Positions 8,775 to 10,054 of a stretch of DNA of 64,000 nt are shown here, in pieces. The stretch's first letter is position 1; each line of letters begins with the position of its first letter. Source of the DNA: Aliarcobacter sp. (GTDB taxonomy: Bacteria > Campylobacterota > Campylobacteria > Campylobacterales > Arcobacteraceae); assembly GCA_028688995.1 (NCBI GenBank), contig JAQTXB010000005.1, positions 158,725 through 222,724 of the forward strand. Reading direction: 5' to 3'. The translations under genes and the position numbers were made by a program. The notes beneath the pieces are model-generated. The model had not been told where the DNA came from. It was given only the letters and a program-made list of their open reading frames with translations, and searched no databases.

Positions 8775-8894
8775 TTCGTTAACTCCAAATTAATAATTTT
8801 CTAGAGTGTATTATTTTATTTGTTAATTTTTAATAATCTAATGTATACAAAATATCTGAATTACTATCTCTCTTGAAAACTTAAAAGTTTCCGC

Positions 8895-9380
8895 TTTCTC
8901 TTACTTTTTGGTCTCAAAAAAGTAAGCAAAAAAGACTGCCGAATTGATGAAGGCAAAGCTTCCTAAGATTTTAGTCTTTTTTTTCTGCGTTGCGGAACTC
9001 GTCGAAAAAGTGCATTTAGCACTTTTCTCTCCTCAAACAGTCCTCACTTTTCACCGAAAAAAAAGCCTAAAATCTTAGCTTCATCAAAGGCAGAATAAAT
9101 CCCGAGTGTTCAAACTATCTTTTTTAAATTGAGTAAAGAAAAGTTGTTAGTCAAAAAATCAAAAATGCAAATGTCCTTATCCCATATTCCAACATCTACA
9201 GAAGCTGAGCGTTTGTTTTCTCTTTTCGAAAAGGCTTGCAACTGTTTGAGTAAATAAATGTGCTAAATGCACATATTTATGAGTTTTGCAAGACAGAAAA
9301 GATAAAACAATAAGTGAAGGAACCCAAAGGGCTTCGAAGCCGTTGGTGGCTTTGCTTACTTTGTCCACACAAAGTAAGAA
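8895..9380. repeat. Inverted pair of ~145-bp nested-palindrome intergenic repeats
   Basis: Left copy anchors CTTACTTTTT..AAAAAGTAAG (8900-8926), GTGCATTTAGCAC (9010-9022), CTCAAACAGT (9032-9041); same anchors inverted at 9355-9378, 9260-9272, 9241-9250 with nearly identical spacing. Confidence 0.65.
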
Positions 9381-9424
9381 GAAGTAATGAGCTTTATATT
9401 TTTTAAGAGGAAATAGTTTTAATA

Positions 9425-10054
9425 TTAATATGAAATATAATACCAATTCTTTTCAATAAATTTTATTTTTAATTTTGCATCATCATATCTTTTAGGATCT
9501 CCACCATCAGCAACATATAAAAACCCTGAATAATTATCTTTAAATCCAATAAAATTATAAAATAATATATAAGTCTTATTTTCAATTTTTTGAATTGTTA
9601 TTCTATTCTCAGTCGTAATATTTGGATATTCATTTGAAATGTTTACTGAACATATATTTCTATTATCAGACCTATCTACACAAATTCCATCTACTGGAAA
9701 TTCTTTGTTATTTAAAATTTCAGTTACTATTTTATTATATATCTTTTTATTTTTTGAAAATTTTAAATTTTGTTTAAACTCACCAATTATAATAAAAACC
9801 ATAATTAAAATACTAACTGCATTAATACATATAGGAATAAAACTTTTCCATCCAATCTTTTTAAACTTTAATAAACAAGTTAAACTAGCTATTAATACAA
9901 TTAAATACAATACAATTATTATTAAAAATAAAAACCCTAATAAAACAGAATCACCTAAATTAGGAGAATCTGTTGGTTCAAAAATAAATATAAATAAAAT
10001 CAACAAAGAAAAAATTATAGAAAATCTGAATCTCCACTTTATTTCATCAAACAT
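9425..10054 (-). CDS. Hypothetical membrane protein, 209 aa
   Basis: Three predicted N-terminal TM segments followed by a soluble C-terminal domain. Confidence 0.6.
   Translation of the reverse strand: MFDEIKWRFRFSIIFSLLILFIFIFEPTDSPNLGDSVLLGFLFLIIIVLYLIVLIASLTCLLKFKKIGWKSFIPICINAVSILIMVFIIIGEFKQNLKFSKNKKIYNKIVTEILNNKEFPVDGICVDRSDNRNICSVNISNEYPNITTENRITIQKIENKTYILFYNFIGFKDNYSGFLYVADGGDPKRYDDAKLKIKFIEKNWYYISY

Follow-up and report, generated by a model that had tools for sequence, protein, structure and literature searches.

What kind of sequence is the non-coding block lying beside valS in the window (the whole stretch of 64,000 nucleotides of Aliarcobacter sp. DNA analysed here), and how did it come to lie there? 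The original prediction, which was made from the sequence alone, had described it as two diverged copies of one element facing each other, and had proposed either a non-autonomous repeat family or a structured RNA. Based on the comparison of this block with related genomes and with other phyla, we consider it likely to be a mobile DNA element of ~550 bp that encodes no protein, present here as an intact, 'empty' copy, moved in trans and with terminators at its ends.

Architecture of the window copy

Two diverged half-units of ~230 bp face each other in positions 8869-9409 (Table 1), so that the block is slightly longer than the previously delimited 8895-9380. The general fold of each half consists of hairpin 1, hairpin 2 (CTTACTTT...AAAGTAAG) and the long hairpin 3, in which an outer stem, a middle stem, the AACTC / CTCAAACAGT core and an inner hairpin GTGCATTTAGCAC follow each other from outside to inside. 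The anchors named before were all read in the sequence, i.e., CTTACTTTTT at 8900 and AAAAAGTAAG at 8917 with CTTACTTTGT at 9355 and ACAAAGTAAG at 9369, GTGCATTTAGCAC at 9010 and inverted at 9260, CTCAAACAGT at 9032 and inverted at 9241 with the same 22 nt spacing in both copies, and the inverted pair CTAAGATTTTAG (8963) / CTAAAATCTTAG (9067) in the left copy. The repeat search found two sets of complementary arms, 9005-9041/9241-9277 (84%) and 8963-8985/9056-9078 (96%). The two halves are indeed facing copies of one element, as they align with each other by BLAST (E 4e-8) and both match the half-unit profile on opposite strands. This profile has 232 positions and was built from 23 full copies, the window copy among the seeds; it matches its own opposite strand, which makes the entire element an inverted pair. 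Both halves fold far below their shuffles (z scores in Table 1), which bears out the strong structure that had been supposed. Decayed coding sequence had been dismissed from the start, and rightly so, because the block has only short ORFs and its two halves are members of a non-coding repeat family. The terminal inverted repeats of the block are TCTCTTGAAAA / TTTTTTAAGAG; the family consensus of the terminus in the half-unit profile is GAAGAC..GTCTTCGCTTTTTTT, and in the family copies the terminal hairpin 1 resembles a terminator, with a hairpin followed by a T-rich stretch. The covariance model of the core, with seeds mostly from other phyla plus the two halves of the window, matched only these two halves within the 64 kb.

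Table 1. Features of the element and the adjoining gene in the window
Feature	Position	Strand	Evidence
Left half-unit	8869..9097	+	profile match E 7e-52, model 2-229 of 232; fold z -4.77
Left terminus TCTCTTGAAAA and terminal hairpin 1	8869..8893	+	fold; terminal inverted repeat; clean insertion edge in the G021 copy
Hairpin 2, CTTACTTTTT...AAAAAGTAAG	8900..8926	+	sequence; fold; same hairpin precedes the core in copies of Betaproteobacteria and Parcubacteria
Long hairpin 3: outer stem, middle stem CTAAGATTTTAG/CTAAAATCTTAG, core, inner hairpin	8936..9093	+	fold; repeat arms
Pan-bacterial core, TGCGGAACTCG, hairpin GTGCATTTAGCAC, CTCAAACAGTCCTC	8970..9070	+	covariance model R1, 54.2 bits, E 1e-16 (seed of the model included this core)
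88-bp segment separating the half-units	9098..9185	.	half-unit limits; position where wide pairs elsewhere hold a gene
Right half-unit, inverted	9186..9409	-	profile match E 5e-58, model 3-229; fold z -3.54
Right half-unit core, more diverged, TGCAAAACTCA...CTCAAACAGTTGC	9212..9311	-	covariance model R1, 33.8 bits, E 1.5e-9
Right half-unit hairpin 2	9355..9378	-	sequence; fold
Species-specific gene, 209 aa, weakly DUF6056-like membrane protein	9425..10054	-	Pfam E 2.6e-5, below cut-off; locus comparison

Insertion and dispersal

What inserts is the inverted pair as a whole, bounded by its terminal inverted repeats, as seen at one site for which unoccupied counterparts exist. In the congener G021, two convergent genes have a 565-bp copy between their stop codons, and nothing interrupts this junction in G025 or in the genome of the window (G000). 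The filled site reads TAAATAG/TTTCTCTTGAAGAAC...TCTTCAAGAGAAAA/GGAATTA and the empty one TAAATAGATTAAAGAATTA, the inserted copy being bounded cleanly by the inverted repeats TTTCTCTTGAAGA...TCTTCAAGAGAAA. No target-site duplication is visible at this single site, where the ~9% divergence of the flanks prevents a short duplication or target motif from being fixed. A second pair of filled and empty sites was looked for in genus g18 and none was found. The junction filled by the element in G021 carries a DUF4238 gene and no element in G029 (L416 685-1629).

The element is dispersed. The window's genome has one more full copy and one half copy, so the block is not single-copy, and matches were present in 8 of 31 genomes of the genus, its own included; full copies at most 91% identical occupy non-orthologous sites of related species. 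At the family level, 40 of 104 genomes matched by BLAST and 39 of 104 by the covariance model, with 1-20 cores per genome according to the latter. These dispersed copies, together with the empty sites and the lack of an enzyme of its own, agree with the non-autonomous repeat family that had been proposed. The element prefers gene 3' ends and convergent gene pairs: 31 of 89 elements in the family occupy convergent intergenic sites, where the background is 83 of 525 intervals; for other phyla the figures are 26 of 74 and 76 of 520. All these counts are approximate, since the gene calls followed a simple longest-ORF rule. A stop codon stands only 2-20 bp from many of the elements.

Near-identical solo half-units lie beside the same repeated set of ORFs, possibly ribosomal operons, at several positions in the G080 genome (L176, L177, L178). 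The right end of several copies carries a REP-like palindrome, GTATGCATTCCCATCGAGGACAATGGGAACGAGA (L069 5024-5260, L071 5590-5680), which occurs in three tandem copies in G029; it was rejected as a part of the element and is regarded as a separate repeat.

Four half-units were split, exactly at the conserved core, by insertions of the IS110 family (L140 5076-6665, L167 4314-5693, L170 3246-4765 and L174 4938-6745), the assignment being based on the Pfam family DEDD_Tnp_IS110 (E 5e-18) in the one of the four that was tested. In L170 the core is broken on its 5' side, GGAACT/CG, and both junctions carry CT; in L140 the break, GGACT/GTTTGAG, is on the other side. These breaks suggest a bridge/seek RNA programmed for this core, and they parallel the known habit of IS110/IS1111 elements of inserting into REPs (PMC1525189, PMC11187229, PMC11208160). 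The IS110 transposases, the only genes of this kind seen inside half-units, were rejected as the element's own gene, as they are insertions into the core and not parents.

A core shared among phyla

The core, CTGCGGAACTC followed by a variable hairpin and TCAAACAGTCCTCG, is present in many phyla. The 21-base pattern GAACTCG-N(3-33)-CTCAAACAGTCCTC gave at least 120 exact matches, compared with ~3.6 expected by chance, and among the matches listed were Beta- and Gammaproteobacteria, Myxococcota, Nitrospirota, Omnitrophota, Bacteroidales, Lachnospiraceae, Coriobacteriia, Gastranaerophilales and several Patescibacteria. MAGs account for many of the matches. Contamination can nevertheless be dismissed, as isolates (Dechloromonas hankyongensis, Niveibacterium, Novimethylophilus) are also among them and the stems and flanks vary from copy to copy. 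Conservation extends past the search pattern, with CTGCG before it and G after it. The internal loop GGAACTC / TCAAACAGTCC is kept across bacteria while changes in the outer and inner stems compensate each other: the share of paired cells is 87.6%, as compared to 74.3% for shuffles and 35-48% for slid controls, and two-sided stem changes number 82 against 32. Compensatory changes in the stems, which the original prediction had named as the check on its structure, are thus abundant across phyla.

The surroundings of the core differ among lineages. Betaproteobacterial and Parcubacterial copies have an AAAGTA-type hairpin before the core and a total length of ~600 bp, and those of Lachnospiraceae resemble single long hairpins. 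A search of E. coli for the core gave no copy. The plasmids, phages and viruses searched gave one 49-bp match on a Variovorax replicon and nothing else, and this essential absence from the searched plasmids and phages counts against the mobile-DNA reading. No description was found in a literature search by sequence strings and topic, whose coverage left out most subscription journals and preprints.

Paired cores and the genes within or beside them

The geometry of the cores was read in ten whole genomes of other lineages, chosen by way of the matched loci, where 113 listed cores gave 35 neighbour pairs less than 2.5 kb apart. Thirty-three of the pairs face inward, two outward and none are in tandem. 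The inward gaps are bimodal, 137-290 bp (n=17) or 896-1981 bp (n=16) with nothing between; the narrow pairs are empty, like the window copy, and all 16 wide pairs were read and each spans one or two unrelated small genes. This cargo includes GmrSD_N+HNH (523 aa), DUF4238 (323 aa), DUF3800 (293 aa) and DUF2971-like (222 aa, just under the cut-off) proteins, an HNH-like protein, two restriction-like proteins of which one is weakly PD-T7-5-like in PADLOC, an 8xMP membrane protein, a DnaJ-domain protein and others of no known family. Some of these are putatively defence-like, judging from family names and, for a minority, PADLOC/Pfam matches. None of the 16 wide inward pairs contains a transposase or integrase. 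Of the two outward intervals, one has a LysR-type regulator with a second gene and the other a MetY-like gene, all of them ordinary genes. The enclosure of single accessory genes is seen in Betaproteobacteria, and a cargo-bearing pair would be expected to move as a unit. No pair of the window's family encloses cargo; the variable gene there stands beside the pair.

In the window this neighbour is the 209-aa gene, 16 bp from the element and between it and valS. The same place is taken in congeners by a 192-aa protein (G021), an HNH protein (G029) or a 164-aa protein (G025), and has no gene in G002, G006 and G023. Upstream of recQ, adjoining the element, are AbiTii (G019), AIPR/AbiU-like (G021), HARE-HTH (G001) and other genes. 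The single gene held by these valS and recQ hotspots (window; L056, L061, L066, L068, L069, L071, L072) differs in almost every species. A species-specific gene was present at the two loci in 10 of 12 element-bearing species and in 3 of 15 without the element (p 0.002), in a post hoc test that was counted by hand, with species that are not independent and kinship uncorrected. Gene gains occur at these spots in the absence of the element too, and therefore a shared preference for permissive sites suffices to account for the difference.

In different genera, HNH-like partner proteins of one family end 2-19 bp from the element at three unrelated loci (L121 2224-4763, L137 5203-6129, L154 5241-8112, L162 1560-4227), and one and the same AAA ATPase precedes three of them. 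Two species of one genus share a two-gene segment (255 and 117 aa) with elements flanking it, in L157 2664-4986 and L161 4510-6956, and the genes on its outer sides differ between the two.

Candidates for a mobiliser

No protein family recurred in the element neighbourhoods of the at least 120 pan-bacterial stretches. An autonomous parent with the same ends was rejected, as no recurrent protein lies nearby or inside the wide pairs. A RAYT/Y1 transposase was rejected as well, the search with PF01797 giving none in the window's genome; six of the 31 congeners have this family, three with the element (G001, G019, G029) and three without an element match (G006, G013, G024). The YhbQ-type GIY-YIG nuclease is absent from the window's genome and was likewise rejected. 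Its co-occurrence with the element, p 0.002 with BLAST calls (phylogeny uncorrected), became p 0.12 with covariance-model calls, and of 30 genes for it only one had an element in the few kb taken around it.

Discussion

The element is best read as a paired-palindrome, transposase-less mobile DNA. A host or foreign nuclease or recombinase that recognises the folded core would move it in trans, as happens for REPINs, MITEs and inverted-site modules with enzymes encoded elsewhere, and the end hairpins may act as transcription terminators. If the ends do terminate transcription, insertion beside stop codons would be tolerated, and enclosed or adjacent genes could be exchanged without harm to their neighbours. 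Beyond what had been proposed for the locus, the core is pan-bacterial, the element is inserted as one unit, the inverted pair is its normal form and the same pair encloses an accessory gene in other bacteria.

Both the repeat family and the structure held up. We regard it as unlikely that the repeats are functional transcripts, regulatory or 3'-UTR, with the stems and loop as an RNA motif. The covariation, the conserved loop and the strong RNA folding of both halves fit such a structured RNA, and genes on the 5' side read into the core slightly more often (51 of 74, against 44 of 74 on the 3' side). But there is no Rfam match, solo half-units in the family have no strand preference relative to their neighbours (23 of 38 on each side), and the inserted unit is an inverted pair, which puts its halves on opposite strands; this unit and the weak strand preference favour action as DNA over action as RNA. 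A bidirectional terminator, spread passively by gene conversion or recombination with no dedicated mobiliser, seems to us rather improbable. The terminator-like ends and the preference for convergent gene ends are what it would predict, but it needs neither a size of 550 bp nor a loop sequence conserved across phyla, and neither clean de novo insertions nor two fixed classes of spacing.

Assignment to a known class, REP/BIME sequences moved by a RAYT (Y1) or a MITE from a known insertion sequence, is more doubtful still. REPINs and BIMEs are paired repetitive extragenic palindromes mobilised by RAYTs (PMC3116915, PMC2817692, PMC3733652), and the element resembles them in being intergenic, non-coding, palindromic, dispersed in inverted pairs, without a gene of its own and a target of the IS110 family. 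It shares their inverted-pair mobile form and not their short, high-copy palindrome, with ~230 bp per unit instead of 20-40 bp and 1-20 cores per genome, not hundreds; it has a conserved internal loop in place of the GTAG/CGTC tag and may enclose a gene, and no Y1 match occurs in the window's genome or in several element-rich congeners. Terminal inverted repeats, the lack of a transposase and a possible passenger gene are shared with MITEs and mobile insertion cassettes (PMC10969869 for MITEs). Unlike MITEs, the element has a core conserved across phyla and, as far as the diverged flanks of the one site show, no visible target duplication, and no parent insertion sequence, autonomous relative or common protein nearby was found.

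The element could also be an attachment site at which single accessory genes are exchanged at hotspots, and we hold this to be a real, though less than even, possibility. It would then be functionally like integron cassettes, in which single accessory genes carry structured recombination sites (attC) that act as a folded strand, or like pdif modules, in which inverted XerC/XerD sites bound one or two genes on Acinetobacter plasmids. The excess of variable genes at valS and recQ, the cargo enclosed in Betaproteobacteria and the HNH-like family ending close to the element speak for it. Against it, hotspots gain genes without the element (G011, G010; DUF4238 in G029), gene and element may simply favour the same permissive sites, and the species compared are not independent samples. 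With pdif modules the element shares the one or two accessory genes between inverted sites and, presumably, an enzyme acting in trans, but it is a chromosomal, structured repeat of ~230 bp with no recognised dif-like 28-bp site. Unlike integron cassettes, it is an inverted pair on both sides, dispersed and not arrayed, and the attC R and L boxes (RYYYAAC / GTTRRRY) are absent from its conserved core.

Taking the element as mobile DNA moved in trans, we tentatively suggest that it may represent a new pan-bacterial class of transposase-less mobile cassettes, in which an inward-facing pair with a folded core read in trans stands beside gene ends, either empty or with one small accessory gene, often defence-like. 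A bipartite core of ~30 nt in gene-less repeats, from Campylobacterota and Betaproteobacteria to Lachnospiraceae, Bacteroidales and Patescibacteria, implies a widely common trans-acting factor that is apparently unnamed. In at least some lineages the paired repeats bracket single genes of types known from phage-defence hotspots. With the precise core and the covariance model, a census and biochemistry are directly doable, and the enzyme would explain a route of gene shuffling that is missed by tools seeking transposases, integrases and phages.
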